From Deltaproteobacteria bacterium (GTDB lineage: Bacteria; Desulfobacterota; Syntrophorhabdia; Syntrophorhabdales; JANXAF01): a stretch of DNA of 41,141 bases. This document shows positions 16,481 to 40,488 of the stretch, piece by piece. Position 1 is the stretch's first letter; every line of letters starts with the position of its first letter. The DNA lies in contig JAOADT010000003.1 in the NCBI GenBank assembly GCA_026417175.1, forward strand, positions 1 through 41,141, in the 5' to 3' direction. Under the pieces are notes generated by a model, which saw only the letters and a program-made list of their open reading frames with translations, was not told where the DNA came from and searched no databases. The position numbers and the translations under genes are program-made.

Positions 16481-16957
16481 ATGAAGGAGTCTTTCTTTTA
16501 TAATCGTATTTGTGAAGTGGAAGTGTTCTTAATAAGTTATTCCTGGTTTTATTTTTAGGTCTTATATTTATCGCTGCCGTTACAAGATATATGGGCCATC
16601 CCATAAACTGGTCAGTTGATGTAGCTGTCTGTCTTTTCACATGGTGTACTTTTCTAGGTGGGGATGTGGCTTTAAGAAGGGATAAACTTATGTGTGTAGA
16701 CGTGTTAGTCAGAAACCTACCCCCCAAAGATAAGATGGGTCATCCAGCTTACCAATTTGGGAATAATATTGGTATTTCTCGGAGCACTGGTCATTTATGG
16801 AGCAAAGATGTCATATACAACAAGGTTCAGAACTTTCCAGGGTATACCGTGGTTTAGCTACACATGGGTTACACTCAGCGTTCCGGTTGGTAGCACTCTT
16901 ATGATCTTGACCATACTCACTAAACTGAGAGACCATCTAAGATCCTGTGGGCATTGA
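16481..16957 (+). pseudogene. dctQ: TRAP transporter small membrane subunit DctQ, frameshifted
   Basis: A four-helix DctQ protein can be assembled only by changing frame twice. MKESFFYNRICEVEVFLIS starts at ATG 16481. A shift near 16545 leads into VLFLGLIFIAAVTRYMGH and INWSVDVAVCLFTWCTFLG, with GGDVALRRDKL, the usual DctQ motif. A second shift near 16740 leads into LGIILVFLGALVIYGAK and ending LTILTKLRDHL at 16957. The 3' end overlaps dctM by 11 bases as in intact TRAP operons. Two frameshifts in 160 codons make a functional product unlikely. Confidence 0.85.
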
Positions 16958-18241
16958 AATGCTTCTCGTTTTTCTTTTCTTTGTGTGCTTTCTCCTGATG
17001 GGTATGCCTGTTGCATTTGCCATTGGGATCTCGGGAGTCATTTTCTTTTTACAAAATCCACAGCTTCCATTCACTATGATAATCCAGCTTCCATTGTCCC
17101 AAACTCAGAATTTTCCACTTTTGGCTATCCCACTCTTTATATTTGCCGCAAACTTGATGAATGAAACAGGTATAACGCTCAGACTAATTAAACTGGCAGG
17201 TCTCTTGGCCGGGCATTTACGGGGAGGACTCGCCCAGGTTAATGTGGTTTTAAGCACTCTTATGGGTGGTGTTTCAGAGTTAGCCATTGCGGATGCTGCA
17301 ATGGAAGCAAGAATTTTGGGCACCCAAATGATTAAAAAAGGTTTTTCAAAAGGCTACACGAGCGCAGTCACAACTATCACAGCCTGTATAACCCCAATAA
17401 TACCTCCTAGTATTGGCTTATCCTTTATGGAACCATAGGACAGGTCTCAATAGGTAAACTATTTGCAGGAGGTATCATTCCAGGACTTCTCATGATGGTA
17501 GCAATAATGATCGTGGTTTCAATTACATCGAGAAAAAAGGGGTACGTTCCAGAAAGGGAACGTCCATCTGCCGGCGAGATTATATCTGCTTTGGCAGCGA
17601 GCATATGGGCTTTTCTTTTTCCAATAGTTTTAATCGGGGGTATTCGATTCGGTATATTTACACCCACTGAGGCTGGGGCTTTCGGGGCGATTTATGCAAT
17701 TGCTATAGGTCTCTTTTTTTACAAGGAACTTTCGTGGGCTAGATTCAAAAACGCTTTGGAATGTACGATGATTGATATTGGTGCCATAATGATAATAATC
17801 GCCTATTCTGGGATCTTCGGATACGGTTTAGCATATGATAGAGTGGGTGAAGCGATTTCAAAATTTATACTAGATTTTTCTCAGAATCATTATGTCCTTC
17901 TCCTAATGATTGTTTCTTTCGTATTAATAGCAGGTATGTTCATAGAGAGTGTGGTTATAATCCTGCTATTTACTTCTATACTTCTTCCCTTGGTTTCAAA
18001 AGTTGGAGTTGATCCTGTCCACTTTGGACTCATATTTATGATTGTAGTTGTCCTTGGGCTTGTAACACCACCTGTGGGTGTATCCATGTACACAGTATGT
18101 TCCATACTCGACTGTTCTATTGAAGATTATATGAAGGAATTTCTGCCTTTTCTTTTTGCCATAGTCGCTGTGGATGTTCTCATAATATTCTTTCCCCAAA
18201 TTGTTCTTTTTCTACCTAATCTAATCTTCGGTAAGGGGTAA
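16947..18241 (+). pseudogene. dctM: TRAP transporter large permease DctM, frameshifted
   Basis: Two halves of a roughly 430-residue DctM lie in different frames. The first (16947-17438) runs MLLVFLFFVCFLLMGMPVAF ... LMGGVSELAIADAAMEARI ... ITPIIPPSIGL and then breaks. The second resumes as LILYGTIGQVSIGKLFAGG and continues to 18241 (LFPIVLIGGIRFGIFTPTEA, LGLVTPPVGVSMYT). Restoring one C at about 17414 (GGCTTA to GGCCTTA) joins them. The motif PPSIG...ILYG spans the break, so the lesion hits the conserved core. The true start may be ATG 16959 rather than GTG 16947. The second half could be translated only from an internal start and would lack half the helices. Confidence 0.87.
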
Positions 18242-18923: not shown

Positions 18924-20171
18924 ATGGCAAAGAAAAAGTTAGCAATAGTCGTTGGAGGGGGTCCTGCGCCGGGAATAAATGGTGTTATAAGTTCCGCAAC
19001 TATAGAAGCTTTAAACCACGGACTGGAAGTTTATGGGATAGTCGGAGGCTTTAAAACCCTTTTTGAAGGAAATATAAATAACTTTCTCCCCTTAACAATA
19101 GATCACGTTTCAAGAATCCATACCACCGGAGGATCTATCCTAAAAACGTCAAGAGATGCTCCGGAAAACGTACAAGAAAAATTCAAGACATTAATTTCCA
19201 CTCTTTATCAGAGTGGTATAAACTACCTCATAACTATCGGTGGGGAAGGAACATTATTTATGGCCTCATGGATAGAGAGGGAAACAAGAGGAAAGATATC
19301 CGTCGTTCATACTCCTAAGACTATCGATAACGATATTCCCCTTCCTGGGGGATTCTCCACATTTGGTTACCAGACCGCTTGCCATGTAGGTGTTAATATA
19401 GTGAAAAACATAATGGAAGACGCAAGAACTATGGATAGGTGGTATTTTATAACTACTATGGGTAGACACACGGGTCACTTAGCTTTAGGCATCGGAAAGG
19501 CAGCTGGTGCTACAGTAACACTAATACCGGAAGAATTTTTTGAAAAAAAAGTATCTTTAAAAAAGGTTGCAGACATATTAGCCGGCGCCATAATAAAAAG
19601 GTACTCAATGGGTAGATCTTATGGCGTCGCCATACTTGCGGAAGGGATTGTGGAGAAATTCGATATGGATGAACTCTCAAAGATAGAATTTATAGAAAGA
19701 GATGAGATATCAGGCAAGATAAGAATATCTGATATCCAACTCGGCCGTATCCTCAAAATTTATGTATCGGATACCTTGAACGAGTGCGGAATAAAAACGA
19801 ATATAGTTTCCATGAATATAGGTTATGAACTGAGAGCCGCCGACCCCATCCCTTTTGATATAGAGTATACGAGAAATTTAGGATACGGCGCGGTGAACCA
19901 TCTACTCAAAGGTGGTACAGGTGCCCTAATCGCTGTGTATGAGGGAAGAATAATGGCTGTACCTTTTGTGGAAATGTTTGACTCAAAGGGTAACGTTAAA
20001 ATAAGGAAGGTGGACATAGACTCTGAACTATACAGGGTAGCAAGGGAATACATGATAAGGCTCGAAGAAGAAGATTTTGAGGGCCAAAGATTAAAAACAC
20101 TCGCAGATACTGCACATATGACCCCCGAAAAATTCAGGGAACGTTTTGGGTATCTTTTTGGTCTCTGCTGA
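18924..20171 (+). CDS. PFK-family 6-phosphofructokinase
   Basis: 415 residues of the PfkA superfamily, phosphorylating fructose 6-phosphate in glycolysis. The phosphate-donor loop GGGPAPGING is at 11-20, the motif GGEGT at 106-110, the catalytic segment PKTIDNDIP at 131-139 and MGRHTGHLALG follows. The two donor-selecting positions are mixed: G109 is what ATP enzymes have (PPi enzymes have Asp there), while K132 is the PPi-type lysine. The length and KTIDND form place it in the clade shared by PPi-dependent enzymes and long ATP enzymes. The donor is therefore uncertain, with ATP favoured by G109. It is intact although it directly follows a decayed locus, and its 3' end overlaps the convergent WPF-repeat gene by 38 bases. 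Confidence 0.85.
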   Translation: MAKKKLAIVVGGGPAPGINGVISSATIEALNHGLEVYGIVGGFKTLFEGNINNFLPLTIDHVSRIHTTGGSILKTSRDAPENVQEKFKTLISTLYQSGINYLITIGGEGTLFMASWIERETRGKISVVHTPKTIDNDIPLPGGFSTFGYQTACHVGVNIVKNIMEDARTMDRWYFITTMGRHTGHLALGIGKAAGATVTLIPEEFFEKKVSLKKVADILAGAIIKRYSMGRSYGVAILAEGIVEKFDMDELSKIEFIERDEISGKIRISDIQLGRILKIYVSDTLNECGIKTNIVSMNIGYELRAADPIPFDIEYTRNLGYGAVNHLLKGGTGALIAVYEGRIMAVPFVEMFDSKGNVKIRKVDIDSELYRVAREYMIRLEEEDFEGQRLKTLADTAHMTPEKFRERFGYLFGLC

Positions 20172-21450
20172 AAGGTACGAAGAAAAGTGTAACCTTTGAT
20201 TTCTGAAAACCCAAAAGACCACAGAAAAACTTTATAGCGGTTTCGTTTTCTTCTTTTTTTACCTCAAGCAAGAAAGCTAATCTTCTCTTCCAAGTGTTTT
20301 TTTTCCTTTCCTGGGTGTAGAGTCCGTACAAGATGTTGAGACCCTCCCAGTCCCCCTGTTTTTTATATTCCACAATTGAAAATAAAGGATTTATGATTTT
20401 TTGAAATCCTTCAAATTTAAACGGAAACACAAAGGGTACAGCCAATTTAGAACTTCCCTCTTTCTTTTCATATCCAAAAAAAGGCCATAAATTTACAAAT
20501 AGAGCTTCCTTTTTTCTCTCATATCGGTTTAAAAGTAGAAACTGGATATCAATTTCCTTTTCCTCCTCATCAATAGATTCCTTTTTTGTATAGAGAAATG
20601 GCCAGAGAAATCCTTCTGTTTTGTATTCGGCGCTAACCATATTTTTAAACAAAGGGAAAATACTTACCCCTTTTTCTTTTCCTTCTGATACCGTAATAAA
20701 AGGCCAAAAATAAGAAACTTTTGTCCTATATGGGTTTTTAAATCTGCAATAAAGAGGAAACATAACACAAAGAGACTCTAAAGATCCGGACTCCTTCTTT
20801 CCTGTTAAATAGAAGGGTACGAAATAAAATGAGCTGTACGGATCCTCTGTATCCAAGCCTTTTATTTCACGGTAAATAAAGGGCCAAAAAAAGAACTCAG
20901 TTTTTTTTCTCCCCTCTATCTCTCTCCTTCCATAAAAAGGAAACACCTTGAATCCTTTTTCTTCTCCACTATAAATTGAGAAAATAGGCCAAAAAAAATT
21001 CTCTTTTTTTCTTTTCTCCACTTCCGTTGAACTGTATAAAGGCCAGAGAAAGAATCTTATATCTTCATTACCAAACCTATTTTTTAAATGACCATAAATC
21101 GGAAATAATCCACCGTAGGTTTCATTATTTTCTTTTCCATAAAAGAAAAGAAAAAAAGAGTAGTTTTTACGCTCTTTTTGCTCTTGAGACATGTAGAAAG
21201 GCACAAAATACGATTTTTTAGGTCCAAACCTGGCCAGAGGATAGGGAAACCTCACCACCCCTCCATTCTCATTCTCATATATAAGAAAAAGAGGTCTCAC
21301 TATAAGCTCTTCCTTTTCCTCTTTATCCGTCAAGGATATAAAAGGGCCTAATAACCTTTTTTCCTCTCCGAACTCATAAAAAAACGGCCAGATAGCGTAC
21401 GAACTCAAAGGAAGAAACAGAAAAATGATAAGAAGAGACCTTATGAGCAT
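20134..21450 (-). CDS. Secreted WPF-repeat protein, unknown function
   Basis: 438 residues. A signal peptide (LIRSLLIIFLFLPLSSYA) is followed by about 18 short, regularly spaced aromatic strands separated by charged turns: WPFFYEFGEE, RPLFLIYENE, YFVPFYMSQE, FFLWPLYSST, FFWPIFSIYSGEEKG, FKVFPFYGRR, FFFWPFIYREI, YFVPFYLTGK, VMFPLYCRF, YFWPFITVSEGKEKG, SIFPLFKN, GFLWPFLYTKK and so on. Alternating aromatic/aliphatic strands and Lys/Glu turns every 15-20 residues suggest a beta-barrel or an extended beta-solenoid at the outer membrane. I know no functional assignment. Its start shares a base with the mlaD stop, making it the last gene of the Mla operon. Confidence 0.75.
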   Translation of the reverse strand: MLIRSLLIIFLFLPLSSYAIWPFFYEFGEEKRLLGPFISLTDKEEKEELIVRPLFLIYENENGGVVRFPYPLARFGPKKSYFVPFYMSQEQKERKNYSFFLFFYGKENNETYGGLFPIYGHLKNRFGNEDIRFFLWPLYSSTEVEKRKKENFFWPIFSIYSGEEKGFKVFPFYGRREIEGRKKTEFFFWPFIYREIKGLDTEDPYSSFYFVPFYLTGKKESGSLESLCVMFPLYCRFKNPYRTKVSYFWPFITVSEGKEKGVSIFPLFKNMVSAEYKTEGFLWPFLYTKKESIDEEEKEIDIQFLLLNRYERKKEALFVNLWPFFGYEKKEGSSKLAVPFVFPFKFEGFQKIINPLFSIVEYKKQGDWEGLNILYGLYTQERKKNTWKRRLAFLLEVKKEENETAIKFFCGLLGFQKSKVTLFFVPFSRDQKDTQNVP

Positions 21451-22475
21451 TAGAATAATATGCCCAAAAGTGTCCCGAGCACTGTAATAGGTGTCATTTC
21501 TTGAATTCCATCAGAAGCTCTCTGTATATCTTTTACTGCCTTTTTCGTCTCCACATAAAGGGTTTCATCTTTGGCAAGTTTTCCCAAAGTTCCTTCACCC
21601 TTATTTACAGACTCAGCTATTTCTTTTAAGTATCTTACAGTCTCTCTTGTCTCAACGTACATGGAATCGTCTTTCAAAAGCTTTCCTAGAGTTCCTTTAC
21701 CCTCTTCAACCTCTCTTGCTATGTTTTTTATCGTTCCCATCGCCTCCCTTCCCTCATTTAGTAAGGCTCTTGCCTCTTTATATGCCGAATCGTCCTTAAT
21801 TAATAATCCTAGCGTTCCCTTCCCCTCTTCAACATCTTTAACTATCTTTCTTAGTCCAGATAAAGCCTCGTCTGCATTACTGACAACTCTTGTTATGCTA
21901 TCCTTGTTTTTCGAGATAATCTCGCTAAACTCTCCTGTGGCATTTCTTATGTTTTTTAAACTTTCTTTCAAGTTTGCCTTCTCCTTTTCTCCTATAAGAC
22001 CTTTGAGATCACCCATCACATCCCCAAAATTGGATGCCGCCTTATCAATCCTTTTAAACATATCTTCTATAGAAGGTGTGACTTCCACATTCTCTATTAC
22101 CCCGCGTTCTGCAAGATACGATCTGTCTTTTCCCGGTAGAATCTCTATATATTTGTCCCCCAAAACACCCTCAGTTCTAATCACCACGGAGCTGTCCCTT
22201 GGAATTTTTACATCATCTCTTATAATCATCACAATTTTTGCCCTAAAACCTTCAAGATTCACACTCTTTACTTGTCCCACCGTTACTCCCGCTAATTGGA
22301 CCGGTGATTTAGTATCTATCCCCGAGGCATTTTCAAGAAAAACAAAAATCTCATATCCCTTTTCTTTAAAGAACCCGAACCTCTCAATTTTAAATGACAT
22401 GTAAAAAAGGAGGAGTATGCCACAGAGGACAAGTAACCCCACCTTGAATTCAGGACTTAATTTATCTTTTTTCAT
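21450..22475 (-). CDS. mlaD: MlaD-family MCE-domain lipid-transport protein
   Basis: 341 residues. One N-terminal membrane helix (VGLLVLCGILLLFYMSF, 12-28) anchors the protein in the inner membrane. It is followed by a single MCE domain (about 38-115, with SGIDTKSPVQLAGVTVGQV and GVLGDKYIEILPG), then a long helical region. The C-terminal half contains three copies of a EGKGTLGKL-KDD-YVE motif and ends in a short hydrophobic tail. Family members form hexameric rings passing phospholipids between inner membrane and periplasm. The start overlaps mlaF by 14 bases. It is longer than E. coli MlaD (183), as usual in Desulfobacterota relatives. Confidence 0.87.
   Translation of the reverse strand: MKKDKLSPEFKVGLLVLCGILLLFYMSFKIERFGFFKEKGYEIFVFLENASGIDTKSPVQLAGVTVGQVKSVNLEGFRAKIVMIIRDDVKIPRDSSVVIRTEGVLGDKYIEILPGKDRSYLAERGVIENVEVTPSIEDMFKRIDKAASNFGDVMGDLKGLIGEKEKANLKESLKNIRNATGEFSEIISKNKDSITRVVSNADEALSGLRKIVKDVEEGKGTLGLLIKDDSAYKEARALLNEGREAMGTIKNIAREVEEGKGTLGKLLKDDSMYVETRETVRYLKEIAESVNKGEGTLGKLAKDETLYVETKKAVKDIQRASDGIQEMTPITVLGTLLGILF
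21549..21833 (-). repeat. Three-copy internal repeat in MlaD
   Basis: Residues 215-234, 256-275 and 290-309 repeat the pattern V-E-E-G-K-G-T-L-G-K-L-x-K-D-D-x-x-Y-x-E at spacings of 41 and 34 residues. The repeats occur in the predicted helical periplasmic part and are visible at DNA level as GTTCC-rich blocks on the plus strand. Confidence 0.85.
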
Positions 22476-23232
22476 TTTGACCCCCTATCTCTTTTATTCT
22501 TGATGCATCTAAAAACTCTTTAATGTCTGGATTTTTACTCACGCTTATCTCCTCGGGCGTACCATACGCTATTATTTTTCCTCCACTTAGCATAGCAACC
22601 TTGTCCGCAATTCTAAACATCCCTATTATGTCATGACTTATGACAACATACGTTTTTTTCAGCTTTCTTTGGGTCTCTTTAATGAGGTCAGAAATTGTAA
22701 GAGACATAACAGGATCTAAGGCACTGGTCGGTTCATCGAAGAGAACGATGGGCGGGTCGAGTACAAGAGCCCTTGCAAGACCCGCTCTCTTTTTCATCCC
22801 GCCAGAGACCTCGCTAGGAAGCTTATTGGCGTGCTCAAGTAGACCCACCTGTTCGAGTTTTTCATCTACTATTCTTTTTATCTCCTCTTTTTTTAGCCTA
22901 GTCCTTTCAACGAGCGGAAAGGCCACATTCTCCCATATGCTCATGGAGTCAAACAGAGCAGCCTCTTGAAAGAGCATTCCGAAATTCAACCTTATTCCGT
23001 TGAGTTCTTTCTCGCTTAGTTTAGTGATTTCCTTCCCGTCCACCCAAATCTCTCCGCTGTCAGGCTTTATAAGCCCAATTATGTGCTTCAAAAGAACACT
23101 CTTTCCGCTTCCGCTTTTTCCGATTATGACCGTTATTTTACCTCTTTCTATCTCCAAGTTTATCCCATCGAGAACCTTCTGATTATCGAAACTTTTTTTT
23201 AAATCCACTATGCGAATGACTATATCTCCCAT
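22462..23232 (-). CDS. mlaF: MlaF-family ABC transporter ATPase
   Basis: 256 residues, the ATPase of the Mla phospholipid transporter. Walker A is VIIGKSGSGKSVLLKHI, the signature VSGGMKKRAGLARALVLDP, Walker B IVLFDEPTSALDPV and the switch histidine lies in VISHDIIGMF. The GGMKKRAGLARA signature is diagnostic for the MlaF subgroup. One base separates it from mlaE and it overlaps mlaD. No MlaB STAS subunit is encoded beside it, so the complex may be MlaEFD only or use an MlaB from elsewhere. Confidence 0.93.
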   Translation of the reverse strand: MGDIVIRIVDLKKSFDNQKVLDGINLEIERGKITVIIGKSGSGKSVLLKHIIGLIKPDSGEIWVDGKEITKLSEKELNGIRLNFGMLFQEAALFDSMSIWENVAFPLVERTRLKKEEIKRIVDEKLEQVGLLEHANKLPSEVSGGMKKRAGLARALVLDPPIVLFDEPTSALDPVMSLTISDLIKETQRKLKKTYVVISHDIIGMFRIADKVAMLSGGKIIAYGTPEEISVSKNPDIKEFLDASRIKEIGGQNEKR

Positions 23233-23233
23233 A

Positions 23234-23998
23234 TCAGAAAAGCAGTGACGTAAGTACGTAATCTGCTACAAGGATCGCCACACACGAAATGACTACAGCT
23301 TCCGTAGTGGATCTACCAACACCTTCAGCTCCACCCCTTGTATAAAAACCTTTATAACATGACACTAGACTGAATATGACGCCAAAGCAAGCAGCCTTTA
23401 CAAGTCCCATGTATATGTCCTGAAATTCCAAATACTTATAGATTCGGTTTAGGAAGGCCCCTTCGTTCACATCGAGTAATTTGACAGCTATAAGATAACC
23501 TCCTGCTATGCCAAGAAAATCAGAAATGATCGTTAAAACGGGCAACATAAAGAATGATGCTACAACCCTGGGGACAACCAGATACTTTATTGGATTTAAT
23601 GACATAACCACAAGTGCATCTATCTGCTCGGTGACCCTCATAGTTCCTATCTCCGCAGCCATTGCCGAACCAGCCCTGCCAGCAACCATAAGACCGGTGA
23701 GAACGGGCCCTAGTTCCCTTGTCATACTCAAAGCCACTGTAATCCCTATTAAACCTTCAGCACCAAACTTCCTAAATCCATAGTATGTCTGTAATGCTAG
23801 GACCATTCCTGTGAATGTTCCAGTGAGAAATACAACGGGTAAGGATTTTACTCCAACAAACTCCATCTGCTTGACGATGTAGTTAATCTTGAGTGGCCTT
23901 TTAAAAGCGAGAAGCACACACTCAAAAAACATAAGACCGGCTAATCCCAGTTCTGTTATAAATTTTCTTAGAGGCGAAGAGATCGAATAAATGCTCAT
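23234..23998 (-). CDS. mlaE: MlaE-family phospholipid transport permease
   Basis: 254 residues of the MlaE/YrbE family with an N-terminal amphipathic elbow helix and about five membrane helices. Conserved stretches seen are FTGMVLALQTYYGFRKFG, TRELGPVLTGLMVAGRAGSA, AEIGTMRVTEQIDALVVM and the closing GGAEGVGRSTTEAVV. It forms the inner-membrane core that MlaF drives and MlaD extends into the periplasm. The first 4 bases of its gene overlap the stop of alr, so cell-wall precursor and outer-membrane lipid genes are translated from one message. Confidence 0.94.
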   Translation of the reverse strand: MSIYSISSPLRKFITELGLAGLMFFECVLLAFKRPLKINYIVKQMEFVGVKSLPVVFLTGTFTGMVLALQTYYGFRKFGAEGLIGITVALSMTRELGPVLTGLMVAGRAGSAMAAEIGTMRVTEQIDALVVMSLNPIKYLVVPRVVASFFMLPVLTIISDFLGIAGGYLIAVKLLDVNEGAFLNRIYKYLEFQDIYMGLVKAACFGVIFSLVSCYKGFYTRGGAEGVGRSTTEAVVISCVAILVADYVLTSLLF

Positions 23999-25128
23999 AT
24001 GTAGTATCTTCTCACGTCTTTAGATATCCCACAGAATATCTCATATGGGATAGTATTCAGTTTATCAGCAAGTTCCCAAGCTGTTATCCTTTCTTTTTCG
24101 GTTTTACCAAGTAGGATAACGGTGTCTCCTTTTTCCGCATTCACATCCGTTATGTCTATAAGCGTCCAATCCATGCATATCCTTCCAACAACGGGACATC
24201 TTTTTTCTTTCACTATCACATAAGCACAATTAGAGAGCCCTCTCCTATATCCATCTGAATATCCACAAGGGATAAAACCTATTCTCGTTCTCCTTTTTGT
24301 AACGAAAGTTCCTCCATAGCTTAGCCTAAAACCCTCCCCGAATTCTTTTACGTATGCGATTCTGCTTTTAAGAGAGAACGCCTCTTCTACACCAAGACTA
24401 CCTTCCAGTTCTCGAGAAGGGTATGACCCATATAGACCTATACCCACTCTAACCATGTTAAAGTATGCCTCGGGATAGTTTATGATTCCGCCAGTGTTGG
24501 CCATGTGAATATGTACTGGTTTAATCCCGTAAGAACCGAAAAGTCTTAGAACATTTTCGAACGTATCTACTTGCTTTAAGCCATATCCGTTCCTCTTTTC
24601 CGATTCAGAGAAATGGCTCATTATACCTTCAATATGAAGGCGAGGTTCGTTTTTCAAAAGATCAATGAGACTCCCCGCTTCTTCTGGCATAAAACCGAGC
24701 CTTCCCATACCTGTATCGAATTTTACGTGTATCACAATATCTCTCTTACTTTTTTTCGCAAAATCGATGATTTTCCTTAAGCTTTCAAGTTCATGAATAA
24801 CAGGCGTAAGATTGTAACTGACCAACGACTTTATTCCGTCTGGAGAGAATATTCCACCAAGGATTAGGATTTTGCCTCCTATTCCCGCTTTCCTCATTTC
24901 TATACCTTCATTAACTGAAGAAACTCCGAAAAAATTGCATCCTGAATGGTAAAGTCTCTTCGAAACGTGTATCATACCGTGGCCATACGCATCAGCTTTA
25001 ACTACACATAAAACTTCCACGTCTTTTCCCACTCTGCCTTTTATCAATTTATAATTTCTTTCTATTGTGCCTAGATTTATCTCGGCAAAAATCCTATCTT
25101 TTGCCGAGTTGCCTGAAGATTTTTTCAT
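23995..25128 (-). CDS. alr: Alanine racemase
   Basis: 377 residues. PLP-dependent enzyme interconverting L- and D-alanine for peptidoglycan. The Schiff-base lysine is in VLCVVKADAYGHG near residue 43, the barrel has FDTGMGRLGF and VRVGIGLYGSYP, and the second catalytic base (Tyr) is in RLSYGGTFV, followed by PVVGRICMDWTLID. The length fits the family. The ATG at 25128 lies inside hemL, giving a 35-base overlap, and a perfect 10-bp hairpin spans the overlap. Located between heme-precursor and Mla genes. Confidence 0.93.
   Translation of the reverse strand: MKKSSGNSAKDRIFAEINLGTIERNYKLIKGRVGKDVEVLCVVKADAYGHGMIHVSKRLYHSGCNFFGVSSVNEGIEMRKAGIGGKILILGGIFSPDGIKSLVSYNLTPVIHELESLRKIIDFAKKSKRDIVIHVKFDTGMGRLGFMPEEAGSLIDLLKNEPRLHIEGIMSHFSESEKRNGYGLKQVDTFENVLRLFGSYGIKPVHIHMANTGGIINYPEAYFNMVRVGIGLYGSYPSRELEGSLGVEEAFSLKSRIAYVKEFGEGFRLSYGGTFVTKRRTRIGFIPCGYSDGYRRGLSNCAYVIVKEKRCPVVGRICMDWTLIDITDVNAEKGDTVILLGKTEKERITAWELADKLNTIPYEIFCGISKDVRRYYI
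25081..25108 (-). repeat. Perfect 10-bp inverted repeat at the hemL/alr overlap
   Basis: CTCGGCAAAA (25081-25090) and TTTTGCCGAG (25099-25108) flank an 8-base loop. It contains the hemL stop and codes for residues 8-16 of Alr. No T-run follows on the minus strand, so it is not a standard terminator; it could modulate translation of alr or be chance. Confidence 0.6.
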
Positions 25129-34339: not shown

Positions 34340-34663
34340 TTATTCTTCCCTCTCAAAAAATGCTGGCATAGGCGGAAAAGGAAACCGTGAACGGTATGAT
34401 AATAATGCTTTCTTCCTCTGGGTTAGGTTTTCCATACTTTTTAAAACCTTACTTTTTATGTTCTCAAGTCTTTTCAGAATCTCCTGCTCTTTTATTAAAT
34501 GCTCCATTCTTACCCAGGTTAATGAAGTTTCTGTTTGTGTTATGATATCAAAGATTTTGTCTCTTTCCATGAGAATCTCTAAAAAGATTTCATCGTCTTC
34601 TTCTGAAAGGGCGCAATCGGTAAAAGAATTAAATTTAAATATTAGCTCTTCTAAATGCATCAT
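34340..34663 (-). CDS. Small helical protein, FliT-like
   Basis: 107 residues, nearly all predicted helix with a heptad pattern (LILKFNSFTDCALSEEDDEI-like start, RMEHLIKEQEILKRLENIKSKVLKS). This fits flagellar export chaperones of the FliT/FlgN type in size and composition, and the place just upstream of the sigma-28 operon agrees, but there is no diagnostic motif. The start overlaps the stop of the large glycosyltransferase gene by 4 bases, which ties the sugar-transfer genes to the flagellar cluster. Confidence 0.45.
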   Translation of the reverse strand: MMHLEELIFKFNSFTDCALSEEDDEIFLEILMERDKIFDIITQTETSLTWVRMEHLIKEQEILKRLENIKSKVLKSMENLTQRKKALLSYRSRFPFPPMPAFFEREE

Positions 34664-37600
34664 GCAAAAAGCGAAAAAATGTCACTCCTACTTGGTATAT
34701 CTCGTCTGGCCAGATCTGCTTTCGTTAAAATAAGGTACTTCTTCCCTTCCAAACCGTTTAAAAGCTCTTCTCTTTGTCCGTCAAAAAGTACGATATCTGG
34801 AAATTCACTGAGTCCCATCTCCTTGATGTATGACTCCATTTGATCCTTTATAAACTCAAGATTTTCACCGTTTGGATATACTATTAATTGCATTGCTTTA
34901 GAGTAAGGATGAGTCAAATAATAATCGAACTTCTTTTTCCAGTGTTTTTTGTCCCATTCCATGATAAAGAACGTATCATTGCACAAAGGAAAAATTAGCC
35001 TTTCGATAGTTGCGTTTACGTACAGAGCTTTCTCTATAAGTTCATCTTTTCTCGAAGCGCGGGGTATTCCCCATTTTTCCATCAGCTTCCTTTCATTTTC
35101 AACGATGGAAAGCTCATAATCTAATCGCTCATTTATAAACGTTCTATTTCCGAAATGGTATACGAAGGACTCGCAGCAAATTAGGGTTTCATATCCTACC
35201 CTTTGCACCCTTATGCAGAAATCGTCGTCTTCAAAATTCCCTGGATAGAACCTTTCATCAAATCCACCTATTTTTTCAATGACCTCTCTTTTGATTGCCA
35301 TGCAGAGCCCGATCACATAGTTTTGTCTTATATACTTATTTTTGTTCTCTTCCCTTATTTTTGTCGCGTATGCGGCTAATATTCCAAAGTCTACCTTATG
35401 TGGAGCCTCAAATTTTAGAGGGCAGTTTTGAATCATTTGAGCACCGTAAACATAGTTAGACATAGGCCCAGTAATACCTATCTCTTTTTTTCCAACAAGT
35501 GGTTTTAAAAGGCTTCTTAGCCATCCAGGAGTCACGATAGTGTCATTGTTAAGAATCACAATGTATTCTCCTTTAGAGACCTCAATCCCTCTATTAAATC
35601 CTCCAGCAAAACCTAGATTGTCAAGCGATCTTAAATATTTGATGTCAACAATTTTGCCTTTATCTTTCCAGCCTACAACGTCGTTCAAGAACGATCTTAT
35701 AGATCCATTGTCAACAAGGACAATCTCATAGGGAACATCTGTATACCTTGTCAAAGACTCAATACACGTTCTTGTATAGGGCCAGTTGTCCTTGGCCAGT
35801 ACAATAATGCTTGCCATCCCAACGTTTTGACCTAGTTCAATGAATTCTATTTTTTCTTTTTTGATTTCAATTGGTTTTTCAAAAAATCTCCGACCAATTT
35901 CCATACTCAAAAAAATTGAGCTTAGTCTCTTTTTCACAGCTTCAGGGGAATAAGTGTCCTCGATGAACCTTTTTCCGTTAGCGGACAAAGTTTCCCAAAC
36001 TTCTCTGTTTCTGTACACCCGTATTACCTCATTGGCAAATTTTTCCTTATCGTCTCCTATGAGTACGTTTACACCATGAGTGAGACCCATCCCTTCTGCA
36101 CCGATAGACGTCGTTACCACAGGAAGTCCAAACGAAAGTGCCTCTCCGATTTTGCCTTTCATTCCAGCTCCATACCTAAGGGGGGCCACTGAAACTCTCG
36201 CTTTCTTAAGGTAGGGAGAGAGATCCTCTACATATCCTGTAACGATGATATCTTCTGATGCTAATCTCATAACGTCTTCTTGCGGAGAATTTCCTATAAC
36301 AAAAAGCTTTACATCCTTTAATGTCTCTTTAATCAACGGAAATATTTCATTACAAAGATAGAAAACCGCATCTCGGTTGGGAGCATGTCTAAAGTTTCCC
36401 ACGAACACCAGATCTCTAGTTTCCTCAAATCTTTTTATGAAGTCAATCTTTTCGTGCACATTAGGAACTATGTCTATGGGAATATCTCCAATTAGTTTTT
36501 CTATGGCATTTTTATCATTTTCAGTTACAACCCATACCCTATCTGCCTGCCTGTACGTGTGTATCTCTTGTTCCTTGTTTTCAAGGGCTTTTTTTATAAG
36601 ATTCTTGTCCCCCGCCAATTCAGCTTCTCTTAGTTCCCTCACAAAATGAATATCCACCGAGTCCACAATTAAAGGTACATTCTGACCTAATTTTCGAAGC
36701 ATTGGTATCCATTGCTTAGCCAGGTTCCAAAATTCTATAATTACGAAATTAAAATCACGTTCCCTGAAAAACTGCGAAAATGTCCCTATATCAAAAACAT
36801 TAAATTTTTTAAAGTGTTGGAATACGTAGTTTTCTATTCCTAACTCTTCTAATACCGGTCTATAGATGTTCTCTAATTCGTTACTCATAGCGATGAAAGT
36901 CACGTCATACCCAAGCTCCCTCATAAGCTTCAAAATGTTAAATATTCTCAACGAGCCTGACGCCCTGTCATACATAGGATACAAATGATCAAGTACAAGT
37001 ACTCTTTTCGATCTCTTTGAAGGACGCGGCAATTTTTCCCACCTACTCTTAAAGACGGCCAAGTCGTTGGCACTTAATTCGTTTAGTCTATGTCTAACAA
37101 ACCGTTGTGATAACATTTCTCGTTTTGCTTCCACAATGCCCTTGAGTTGAAACGCACGAAAACTTTTTTCATAAAGCTCATAAAGCTCTTTCGTGAGCAA
37201 ATTTCTTTTTTGATCCGATAAGCCAGAAGAAAGAAGCGAAATCTCAATAGCATGAACTTTGTCTTTCATTTCTTCGATTTTTGGTTCTATCTCTTTCCAT
37301 TTCTCATCTGCTCCATCTACCATGCAATACCTTTGCACGACCGGATAGGGATGCAACAAGCTAAAAAGGAATAAAGCCCTTCCCTGTCTTTCACACCTCT
37401 GGCAAAATTGCTCGTAACTGATTTGTCTTATCATGAAACTTTTTGCCTGCCTGTTAAAAATCACTCTGAGCCCAAAACTAACTAGTCTAAAGCCAAGTTC
37501 GATATCTTCAATGATGTATCGAAAATCCTGATTGAATATGCCGTGCTTAACCAAAAACGATCTTTTACATGAGGTTCTACCACCCCAGAAATAGGTGAAG

Positions 37601-38085
37601 TCGAGTTCTTGGCCATCCTTTAGGTTATTGTACGAAAATAAAAACTGTCCAACATCTGTAACGTACTTCATTACAGGAGTTATATGAACACTTGGATGCC
37701 ATGTTGTGTAACCAAGACAGGCAAAGTTCTCTAAACGATACTCATTATGAAATCTAAGATGCTCTTTCAGTAAGTTATAATCTGCCACGTCATCGTCATC
37801 AAAGAAGAGAATAATGGGTCCTTCAGATACGAAAATAGCCAGATTCTTTGCCGCAGAGATTCCAGAGTTTTCCTGAAACACATACTTAAGATTTATTTGG
37901 TTGCTGTAAGATCTTGAAACCCATTCTGTATCATCGGTAGATCCATCATTTACCACAACTACCTCGTAAAGGTCTTTCGATATAGATTGATTCTTAAGGC
38001 TCTCAAGAGACTTCTTCAGAAGATGAGCCCTGTTATAAGTCGGAATTAGTACACTGATTAATGGATTCCGCTCTCCATCTTTCAT
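34660..38085 (-). CDS. Trimodular glycosyltransferase (GT2-GT4-GT2)
   Basis: 1141 residues, no membrane helix. First GT2 domain about 8-245 with VVVNDGSTDDTEW and the metal site FFDDDDV (94-100), then a helical linker to about 355. A GT4 (GT-B) domain from about 360 to 740 has LDHLYPMYDRASGS, VGNFRHAPNRDA, VTGYVEDLSPYL and LRYGAGMKGKIGEALSFGLP. A second GT2 from about 770 has ASIIVLAKDNWPY, VLVDNGS, VILNNDTIVTPGWL and the family's NFEDDDFCIRVQ. Such fusions build a short glycan in steps on a protein or lipid. It follows the second glycosyltransferase gene without a gap and overlaps the FliT-like gene. Confidence 0.87.
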   Translation of the reverse strand: MKDGERNPLISVLIPTYNRAHLLKKSLESLKNQSISKDLYEVVVVNDGSTDDTEWVSRSYSNQINLKYVFQENSGISAAKNLAIFVSEGPIILFFDDDDVADYNLLKEHLRFHNEYRLENFACLGYTTWHPSVHITPVMKYVTDVGQFLFSYNNLKDGQELDFTYFWGGRTSCKRSFLVKHGIFNQDFRYIIEDIELGFRLVSFGLRVIFNRQAKSFMIRQISYEQFCQRCERQGRALFLFSLLHPYPVVQRYCMVDGADEKWKEIEPKIEEMKDKVHAIEISLLSSGLSDQKRNLLTKELYELYEKSFRAFQLKGIVEAKREMLSQRFVRHRLNELSANDLAVFKSRWEKLPRPSKRSKRVLVLDHLYPMYDRASGSLRIFNILKLMRELGYDVTFIAMSNELENIYRPVLEELGIENYVFQHFKKFNVFDIGTFSQFFRERDFNFVIIEFWNLAKQWIPMLRKLGQNVPLIVDSVDIHFVRELREAELAGDKNLIKKALENKEQEIHTYRQADRVWVVTENDKNAIEKLIGDIPIDIVPNVHEKIDFIKRFEETRDLVFVGNFRHAPNRDAVFYLCNEIFPLIKETLKDVKLFVIGNSPQEDVMRLASEDIIVTGYVEDLSPYLKKARVSVAPLRYGAGMKGKIGEALSFGLPVVTTSIGAEGMGLTHGVNVLIGDDKEKFANEVIRVYRNREVWETLSANGKRFIEDTYSPEAVKKRLSSIFLSMEIGRRFFEKPIEIKKEKIEFIELGQNVGMASIIVLAKDNWPYTRTCIESLTRYTDVPYEIVLVDNGSIRSFLNDVVGWKDKGKIVDIKYLRSLDNLGFAGGFNRGIEVSKGEYIVILNNDTIVTPGWLRSLLKPLVGKKEIGITGPMSNYVYGAQMIQNCPLKFEAPHKVDFGILAAYATKIREENKNKYIRQNYVIGLCMAIKREVIEKIGGFDERFYPGNFEDDDFCIRVQRVGYETLICCESFVYHFGNRTFINERLDYELSIVENERKLMEKWGIPRASRKDELIEKALYVNATIERLIFPLCNDTFFIMEWDKKHWKKKFDYYLTHPYSKAMQLIVYPNGENLEFIKDQMESYIKEMGLSEFPDIVLFDGQREELLNGLEGKKYLILTKADLARRDIPSRSDIFSLFA

Positions 38086-40488
38086 TTAAAAACCCCCATC
38101 CATTCCAAAAACCTTTATCACTCTAAAACAGTCCTCATACTTCAAGTGAGGTTTCTTTTCGAGAAACGAAACTCTTATTTTATGTGTTTCACCCCAATCA
38201 TAATTAGCTACTGGCTTTCTAATACTGTGGTCTACCGGGGTGTTATCTATAATTCCCATTTTGAGTCCTCGCCTTAAAATCTCTAAGGCCCAGTAATTTT
38301 CATAACCCCATCCCATCGGAGAAGTAAGATCAAAGGGAAATACAATGTCGTAGATCGATTTATGAACACTGAATATTGGACCAATTTCCACAAACATGGT
38401 CTGACGTGCAATGACACCTCTGTGCTGCCCCACTATTGGATGATCAATAAATGAATTAATAGTTCTTGCGGGCTGCGCAAGCGCAAATTCGCATTTAGAC
38501 TGAATGTAGAGAAACTCATCCAGAAAGCCTAAAGGCAAAATAACATCATCGTCACATACGATGATATATTCATAACGGCTGAGATCTAAGTCTAGAAGTA
38601 ATTCGTTTAGCAATTCAAACTTTCCCTTTTTTTCATATATGCTTCTTACTGTCACTCTCTCTACCTCTTTGTTTGGAGGATCTCCCCCAAGTGAGATCCA
38701 CGACTGTTCAACGAGGTAATTTCTAGACTCTTTAAATCTCACCACTATGTCATAAATGGTGTTTATCTGGTCTGCAAGGTAAATTCCGAGAACTAAAACA
38801 TGGCAAGGAAAAGTTCTTTCAGAATTCACTGTAAAAGGGTGAAATATTCTTGGCCGTTTCTCATCAAGATCTATTTCTTCATCCTTACCCAAGAAGAGAA
38901 ACTCACTGCGCGGATGGTAAATGATCTTCAAATTATTTGAAGCGATCCTTAATCCCAAATCCACAAGGGCAGAAGAAAATTGTTCGTACATGGTATCGAA
39001 TCCTTTAATGAAATCCCATGCTTTCTTCGATACTGCCATTGAATACCTCGATCCGGAGTGAATTTCACAAACATAGTTGAACCTTGGATGGAATTTTGAA
39101 AAGCCTTCTCCATAACCCATCCATCTTTGACCTCTCAAAAAAGAATATCCTGCTTCCATTAGCTTATTATCAGAAGAATTGGTGATCTTAGATGTAGTTG
39201 CATCAGCCCTTCCAGACTGAATCATCTTCTTAAGTGGAAGAAGACTGCTTTCGGCTAATGCCAATTTGGGATGAACAAAAAGAATATTAGTAAATGGGGA
39301 CTCTTTACAAATTTTGTTAATTGCTCCAATCAGAGATTCTCCCTCTGCCAGGAAGTACCAACCTAGCCCAAAAGGGAGATTTCGATCAACCCCTTTGATT
39401 GCTTCCTCGACATGCTCCTTTTTACCCACCACAATAACATCGTCAACACCTACTGCAAGGTTTCTTTTTATGCTCTCGAGACACAGCCGTAGCCGATATC
39501 CACCTGATTCAACGGGTATAACAATCGATAAGGAAAAGCCATCTGACGGTTGTACAGAAAAACCATCTTTGTCTTTCCCTCCAACTTTCTCACTTTTCTC
39601 GCCCGAATTGAGATTTAGTAAGATTTTTTTACATACCTCGTAGGTTTCTTCCGAAAGTTCACCCTTTTGGCTTTCCAGATCTTCCATGCCAATTGAGTGT
39701 TCTCTTAGTCTAAGTTTGATCCCTCTTTCCGCGTCTTGGTTGTAGAGAAGTTGTGTCATTCGGTTCAGCATAACAATTATCTCGGCACCGAGCAGTCCCT
39801 TTTGTTTATGATTCAATCCTGACCACATTCCCTTATTATGAACTCTGTAGACGCCCATACAGTCTGGTAAGTACACAAAGTCCCCTTTTTTTGCACTGAG
39901 GACGTGCAAGATCCAATCCCATCCTATTCTCATCTTAAAATACTCTTCCGGAATCTCCTCAACGTTAAGATTTTCTCTCCTGTATACTACAGAACAGGTT
40001 GCGATAAAATTTGTTACGAGAAGGTCTTTTAATTGAAACACCTTTGTATAAGGTAATCCAATAAACTTCTGTATAAATTTTCCGGACCCATCTCTCATTT
40101 CCACTTGGTGAAAGCAAAAGGAATAATTAGGGTTAGCCTCGAGAAACTCGATTTGCTTCGCAAGTTTGTAAGGATCTGTCCAGTAGTCGTCGCCCTCACA
40201 GAGGGCTATATACTTACCCCTAGCCATAGGCAGTACAAAATCAATCAGAGGTCTAAATCCTTGTGAGCGTTGATTTTCTTTCTGAAAAATGCATAAAAAA
40301 ATATCAGGGTACCTATCTCGGTAGAATTTGATTATCTCTGCAGTTCCATCTGTCGAAGCATCATCATGTACTATGATTTCGAAAGTAAAATTTGTCTTTT
40401 GTTTCAAAAAGCCTAAAATGGCATCATGTATATATTCCGCATGATTATAGGTGGTGCAGCAAATACTAACTAGTGGAATTTTTTCCAT
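38086..40488 (-). CDS. Multidomain glycosyltransferase with three GT-A-like modules
   Basis: 800 residues. Module one (about 5-235) is a classical GT2: SICCTTYNHAEYI, IVHDDASTDGT and CEGDDYWTDP. Module two (about 320-555) begins SLSIVIPVESGGYRLRLCLE but lacks an obvious DxD, so may be non-catalytic or bind acceptor. Module three (about 565-800) contains the metal motif IVCDDDVILPLGF and SPMGWGYENYW, resembling glycosyltransferases of the DUF707-like kind. It abuts the 1141-residue enzyme with no spacer and follows the acyltransferase by 2 bases, so all three form one sugar-modification operon. Confidence 0.8.
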   Translation of the reverse strand: MEKIPLVSICCTTYNHAEYIHDAILGFLKQKTNFTFEIIVHDDASTDGTAEIIKFYRDRYPDIFLCIFQKENQRSQGFRPLIDFVLPMARGKYIALCEGDDYWTDPYKLAKQIEFLEANPNYSFCFHQVEMRDGSGKFIQKFIGLPYTKVFQLKDLLVTNFIATCSVVYRRENLNVEEIPEEYFKMRIGWDWILHVLSAKKGDFVYLPDCMGVYRVHNKGMWSGLNHKQKGLLGAEIIVMLNRMTQLLYNQDAERGIKLRLREHSIGMEDLESQKGELSEETYEVCKKILLNLNSGEKSEKVGGKDKDGFSVQPSDGFSLSIVIPVESGGYRLRLCLESIKRNLAVGVDDVIVVGKKEHVEEAIKGVDRNLPFGLGWYFLAEGESLIGAINKICKESPFTNILFVHPKLALAESSLLPLKKMIQSGRADATTSKITNSSDNKLMEAGYSFLRGQRWMGYGEGFSKFHPRFNYVCEIHSGSRYSMAVSKKAWDFIKGFDTMYEQFSSALVDLGLRIASNNLKIIYHPRSEFLFLGKDEEIDLDEKRPRIFHPFTVNSERTFPCHVLVLGIYLADQINTIYDIVVRFKESRNYLVEQSWISLGGDPPNKEVERVTVRSIYEKKGKFELLNELLLDLDLSRYEYIIVCDDDVILPLGFLDEFLYIQSKCEFALAQPARTINSFIDHPIVGQHRGVIARQTMFVEIGPIFSVHKSIYDIVFPFDLTSPMGWGYENYWALEILRRGLKMGIIDNTPVDHSIRKPVANYDWGETHKIRVSFLEKKPHLKYEDCFRVIKVFGMDGGF

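Follow-up and report, generated by a model that had tools for sequence, protein, structure and literature searches.

The gene that closes an mlaEFD operon in the window (the whole 41,141-nucleotide stretch of DNA analysed here) encodes a predicted secreted protein with Trp-Pro-Phe (WPF) repeats. We conclude with high confidence that this protein and MlaD are functional partners. The explanation that we favour, with moderate confidence, is that it acts in the envelope to dock the C-terminal tails of long-form MlaD proteins to the outer membrane, in place of the β-barrel that some other MlaD proteins carry themselves. Our computations define a WPF protein family, its linkage to mlaEFD, its exclusion of the MlaD barrel, its correlation with an MlaD tail, an all-β model and an export signal read from the sequence.

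The mlaEFD–WPF operon

The operon occupies the minus strand from 25128 to 20134 in the order alr–mlaE–mlaF–mlaD–WPF, within a draft genome of 2.15 Mb that is 96% complete. Its products match the Pfam models MlaE (1e-88), MlaD (2.5e-20) and ABC (1e-35), and its features are as follows.

20134..21450, minus strand: WPF-repeat protein gene, 438 aa, ATG start; conserved family; AF2 model with pLDDT 91
21394..21450, minus strand: WPF signal peptide (MLIRSLLIIFLFLPLSSYA), predicted by eye, with cleavage before IWPFF
21448..21452, minus strand: TAATG, the one-base overlap of the mlaD stop and the WPF start, read from the sequence
21450..22475, minus strand: mlaD of the long form (341 aa), with a single MCE domain and without a C-terminal barrel
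22131..22361, minus strand: MCE (MlaD) domain (PF02470, 5e-21)
21510..21863, minus strand: GxGTLGxLxxDxxLY repeats of MlaD, presumably helical, limits approximate; seen in the translation, with the same repeats in relatives
21453..21509, minus strand: conserved C-terminal tail of MlaD (GIQEMTPITVLGTLLGILF), candidate WPF docking element, from the tail profile
22462..23232, minus strand: mlaF, ABC ATPase, by Pfam
23234..23998, minus strand: mlaE, permease, by Pfam
23995..25128, minus strand: alr, alanine racemase, upstream neighbour, outside the conserved link

An earlier reading of this DNA (the sequence-only reading) had proposed that the operon lacks mlaC and mlaA and ends in a secreted protein whose start shares a base with the mlaD stop. 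All three points held. The mlaD frame stops at TAA, the last base of which is the A of the WPF ATG, and the signal peptide of the WPF protein is recognizable by eye as MLIRSLLIIFLFLPLSSYA followed by IWPFF. Neither MlaC (PF05494) nor MlaA (PF04333) was found in the whole 96%-complete genome, in searches in which E. coli and Caulobacter controls scored, and the genome has a single copy of mlaD. The two findings that had been named as refuting the proposal, WPF genes lying consistently away from Mla genes and mlaA or mlaC elsewhere in the genome, thus turned out favourably for this genome. The C-terminal repeats of MlaD had been called unusual, but the GxGTLGxLxxDxxLY motif proved to be standard in long MlaDs of these phyla. 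In the window MlaD, the repeats form an extended and presumably helical region after the MCE domain; the protein gave no barrel match and its C-terminal end is TPITVLGTLLGILF.

Two further regions of the window were noted. The TRAP transporter genes at 16591–18241 (plus strand) are apparently interrupted, with a DctQ-like open reading frame that spans just 88 aa and with the DctM-like permease in two pieces (16947–17438 and 17492–18241), and are either pseudogenes or assembly frameshifts. At 34660–40488 (minus strand), a tandem pair of glycosyltransferase-like genes, both large (1141 and 800 aa), lies near response-regulator and MotA/MotB-like genes.

The WPF family, its neighbours and the MlaD tail

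The window protein has no credible match in Pfam or NCBIfam, and no model in either names the family; DUF3843 (E 0.04) and other weak Pfam matches were dismissed as chance. Sequence searches of the PDB returned noise only, and the protein used alone as a query had no match in the genome contigs. The WPF protein or a homologue is nevertheless present in 63 of 148 Thermodesulfobacteriota genomes, the window's own counted, and the gene is therefore no chance open reading frame. Searching named genomes with a 12-row alignment extended the carriers to Thermodesulfobacterium, Thermosulfurimonas, Caldimicrobium, Nitrospinota and Verrucomicrobiota, to one Lentisphaerae record and to one record each under the labels Planctomycetota and Myxococcota. 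At a cut-off of E < 1e-30, we counted 154 distinct members. Identity ranges from 22 to 61% in a 40-row alignment, and the family feature, present in the window copy, is a series of W-P-hydrophobic corners that alternate with charged turns. Twelve of 40 family members weakly match the Leptospira model NF047486 LA_1737 of NCBIfam (best E 1e-7), whereas the window protein does not. A lipobox-like cysteine stands at the signal-peptide site in 33 of 117 homologues, an inexact fraction that comes from a crude regular expression with false positives and false negatives; many WPF homologues thus appear to be lipoproteins. In the window copy the signal peptide is plain, with no lipobox by the regular expression. 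Verrucomicrobiota also encode proteins of 435–1292 aa with WPF-like repeats (L185–L187 and L204–L207), none of them near mla genes and all of them weak matches except L185. Such weak matches in long proteins were excluded from the member count; they possibly represent a wider superfamily.

Most members, 119 of the 154, adjoin mlaEFD. The order is mlaE–F–D–WPF in 72 and WPF–mlaE–F–D in 42, and in the remaining 5 the cluster is the same but its gap slightly exceeds the cut-off. The first order prevails in Thermodesulfobacteriota and the second in Verrucomicrobiota, and the existence of two opposite orders argues against simple inheritance of an ancestral arrangement. The alr gene is not part of this link because it is a neighbour mostly in Thermodesulfobacteriota. 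A further 34 members lie away from mla genes, some of them on short contigs; they come mostly from Thermodesulfobacterium/Caldimicrobium, Nitrospinota and Desulfofervidaceae, and every such genome that we checked encodes mlaD elsewhere. In Thermodesulfobacterium and a relative (L051 and L098), the WPF gene stands apart from mlaEFD and is followed by a coaD-like gene (phosphopantetheine adenylyltransferase). MlaD was present in all 25 WPF genomes checked in the named set and, in a sample of 145 Verrucomicrobiota genomes, in 65 of 65 strong WPF carriers compared with 68 of 80 others (p=6e-4).

Families of the phylum that lack WPF have the same operon, often as alr–mlaE–mlaF–mlaD, with an MlaD of 490–575 aa. 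The last 180 residues of this barrel-type MlaD are predicted to form a β-barrel (AF2 pLDDT 86; strands of 6–13 residues), for which the best PDB match is a designed 10-stranded transmembrane barrel (TM 0.52/0.62). Among the 148 Thermodesulfobacteriota genomes, 63 have WPF, 20 have the C-terminal barrel and none has both (Fisher p=9e-6; 20, 11 and 0 at the family level, p=0.011), and WPF is rarer where MlaC (p=4e-7) or MlaA (p=2e-4) is present; related genomes are not independent, so these exclusion and depletion p-values are indicative and overstate independence. Seventeen genomes encode WPF, MlaA and MlaC together; by eye, WPF lies beside a long MlaD in these genomes and MlaC/MlaA beside a separate short one (in G010, for example, 349 aa on contig C61 and 163 aa on contig C11). 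At least one of WPF, barrel and MlaA/MlaC occurs in 57 of 58 families, and the best reading is that three ways to the outer membrane coexist within one phylum. In a tree of MlaE, the MlaC-linked forms make up one clade and the barrel forms fall among the WPF forms in about three places. An AU test did not reject a single barrel clade (p=0.12), and we therefore do not claim that WPF and barrel replaced each other repeatedly. One locus, L164, was left out of this tree and kept among the 45 non-WPF MlaDs of the tail test; it comes from a genome without WPF (G079) and has two long MlaDs (594 and 652 aa) with no barrel match and no tail, and thus a C-terminal extension of yet another kind.

MlaDs adjacent to WPF share a conserved hydrophobic stretch at their very C terminus, xxTPITVLGTxxGxxF-stop, which reads ...EMTPITVLGTLLGILF in the window and EQTPITVLGTVLGTVLK, ETTPVVSFSSIFFGAF or DSGPITAVGVVANALF elsewhere. 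We trained a profile on 51 Thermodesulfobacteriota tails, which score by construction, and used a threshold of >5 bits. The tail scored above it in 115 of 129 MlaDs paired with WPF. These comprise the 51 training rows, 55 of 66 other WPF-adjacent MlaDs (mostly from other phyla, with some additional Thermodesulfobacteriota) and, from WPF genomes in which the two genes are apart, 9 of 12 MlaDs. It was found in none of 60 other MlaDs, made up of 45 barrel, paralogous, WPF-less or short proteins and 15 further MlaC-linked short ones. That the tail is kept where the WPF gene is elsewhere, and is absent from paralogues in WPF genomes, fits a docking element; it may in part be a mark of common descent. 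On these sequence patterns, the idea that WPF binds MlaD through the tail is evenly balanced. The MlaDs of two Nitrospinota WPF genomes (L244 and L245) have no tail. Each is the sole MlaD found alongside the respective WPF protein (L084 and L099), and either a second MlaD is missing from the draft or the partner is a different one. Linkage in two gene orders, exclusion with the barrel and the MlaD tail strongly support the central proposal of the sequence-only reading, that the WPF protein is a replacement partner for MlaA and MlaC on MlaEFD.

Predicted fold and competing roles

AF2, run with 40 sequences, predicted a protein of about 45 strands, mostly of six residues, arranged in hairpins (pLDDT 91, pTM 0.76); an earlier count of 18 aromatic β-strands was too low. 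About 22 conserved prolines, mostly 14–20 residues apart, mark corners that are hydrophobic or aromatic (L-W-P-L/F-Y/F), and the turns opposite these corners are strongly charged. This pattern probably gives the sheet a hydrophobic edge and a charged one. Foldseek found no global match to the model among solved structures (TM in query at most about 0.19). The best high-probability local matches were the TCP domain of CPAP (TCP10, prob 0.99, E 0.04) and ciliary central-pair proteins, and MORN-repeat models showed local 3Di similarity as well; WD40/IFT proteins (E 5e-5, TM 0.13, rmsd 27) were dismissed as a global fold match. The model thus locally resembles single-layer β-meanders, not a typical transmembrane barrel. 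CPAP is a eukaryotic centriole protein, and its TCP domain has no sequence relation to the WPF protein. The domain stands free as a single-layer meander and uses one of its edges to bind a proline peptide (PMC3776556), and the conserved proline in the MlaD tail suggests, as a lead only, a similar mode of binding.

A fold of this kind might itself carry lipid. In the main rival to tail docking, the WPF protein would be a long open β-sheet that crosses the periplasm beside or beyond MlaD with acyl chains on its aromatic side, like TamB/YhdP or LptA. Some 45 consecutive strands would reach about 215 Å if fully extended, which is near the width of the periplasm; one WPF edge is strongly hydrophobic, and the structures that Foldseek matched locally are open sheets of a single layer. 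However, AsmA-type grooves have strands longer than the roughly six residues of WPF strands, no TamB or AsmA match was found for the WPF protein in Pfam or the PDB, and MlaD is itself already extended by a long helical part. We consider such a conduit unlikely, and the bridge that the sequence-only reading had offered is not our first choice.

The plain signal peptide of the window copy, which is without a lipobox, would also suit a soluble periplasmic lipid carrier or a folding or assembly factor for the MlaD tail. Grasekamp et al. raised unidentified proteins as possible helpers in folding the barrels of barrel-less MlaDs (PMC10665443). Against both roles, lipobox-like sites in many lineages suggest a membrane anchor, Pfam scans gave no match to MlaC (PF05494), and the size and extended fold are unlike those of a carrier; we regard them as improbable.

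Slightly less probable still is an integral outer-membrane β-barrel, the other form that had been envisaged, acting as a one-for-one substitute for the MlaD barrel. It would explain why WPF and the fused barrel are mutually exclusive, and the many strands and aromatic residues would be in keeping with it, but the strands are too short (mostly 6 residues compared with about 8–12 in transmembrane strands) and their hydrophobic residues form corners, not spans. Foldseek gave no global match to outer-membrane barrels, whereas the barrel domain of MlaD matches clearly, and many homologues are apparently lipoproteins. The barrel of the sequence-only reading is thus not supported. The 34 members away from mla genes might suggest a passenger in the operon whose envelope role is unrelated, but opposite gene orders in different phyla, the correlation with the tail and the mutual exclusion of WPF and barrel make this scarcely credible.

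A candidate link to the outer membrane

Docking of MlaD tails by the WPF protein could work as follows. MlaEF in the inner membrane would power the MlaD hexamer, and the long helical C-terminal part of the hexamer would form a periplasmic tunnel. Here, a short conserved hydrophobic MlaD tail and the separate WPF protein would stand in for the barrel of MlaD. The WPF protein, an extended β-meander that is hydrophobic along its Trp-Pro-Phe edge and charged along the other, would lie on the inner side of the outer membrane; many lineages would have it as a lipoprotein, the window's lineage in a soluble or peripheral form. By binding the six MlaD tails it would connect the exit of the tunnel with the outer membrane and let phospholipids pass, by analogy with PqiC and PqiB. 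We infer the outer-membrane location, the binding of the tails, the MlaD tunnel and the transfer of lipid with its direction, and for the WPF protein we lean towards docking on the outer-membrane side.

Known systems offer partial parallels. Veillonella parvula has MlaEFD with a long MlaD that bears a C-terminal β-barrel (Grasekamp et al. 2023, PMC10665443). Both systems have MlaEFD without MlaA or MlaC, a long MlaD with an extended helical part and a presumed transenvelope route, but the window MlaD ends in the short conserved tail, not in a barrel, and the WPF protein is encoded separately; the Veillonella-like barrel form occupies the same operon position in other families of the window's phylum. 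PqiC, the outer-membrane lipoprotein of E. coli PqiABC, receives the C terminus of PqiB (PMC10897342). Like PqiC, the WPF protein has its own gene next to that of an MCE protein, and many WPF proteins seem to be lipidated in the same way. However, the PqiC family (ABC_trans_aux) had no match in any WPF member scanned, and PqiB has three MCE domains compared with one in the window MlaD. The window shares homologues of MlaE, MlaF and MlaD with canonical MlaABCDEF, from which it differs in that its genome has no MlaA or MlaC and its MlaD is long, not short.

A literature search of open-licence papers found no description of the WPF family, the tail signature or the three-way division within a phylum; judged by these papers and Pfam, the transport engine was already known and these three elements appear to be new. 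In a survey, most MlaDs were of the long form, MlaA and MlaC were mostly confined to Proteobacteria and the barrel was present on only about 10% of MlaDs; for the link of the others to the outer membrane, the authors named unidentified proteins as one option (PMC10665443). We give even weight to the broader idea that WPF is a fourth route from an MCE transporter to the outer membrane, beside MlaA/MlaC, the fused barrel and PqiC, in which the edge of the β-meander would capture six MlaD tails and open the tunnel in at least Thermodesulfobacteriota, Verrucomicrobiota and Nitrospinota. The WPF family is a concrete candidate for the missing outer-membrane link of barrel-less long MlaDs in several phyla. 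The MlaD tail motif would tell which transporters use WPF, and a protein family that has no Pfam or NCBIfam name gains a predicted role.
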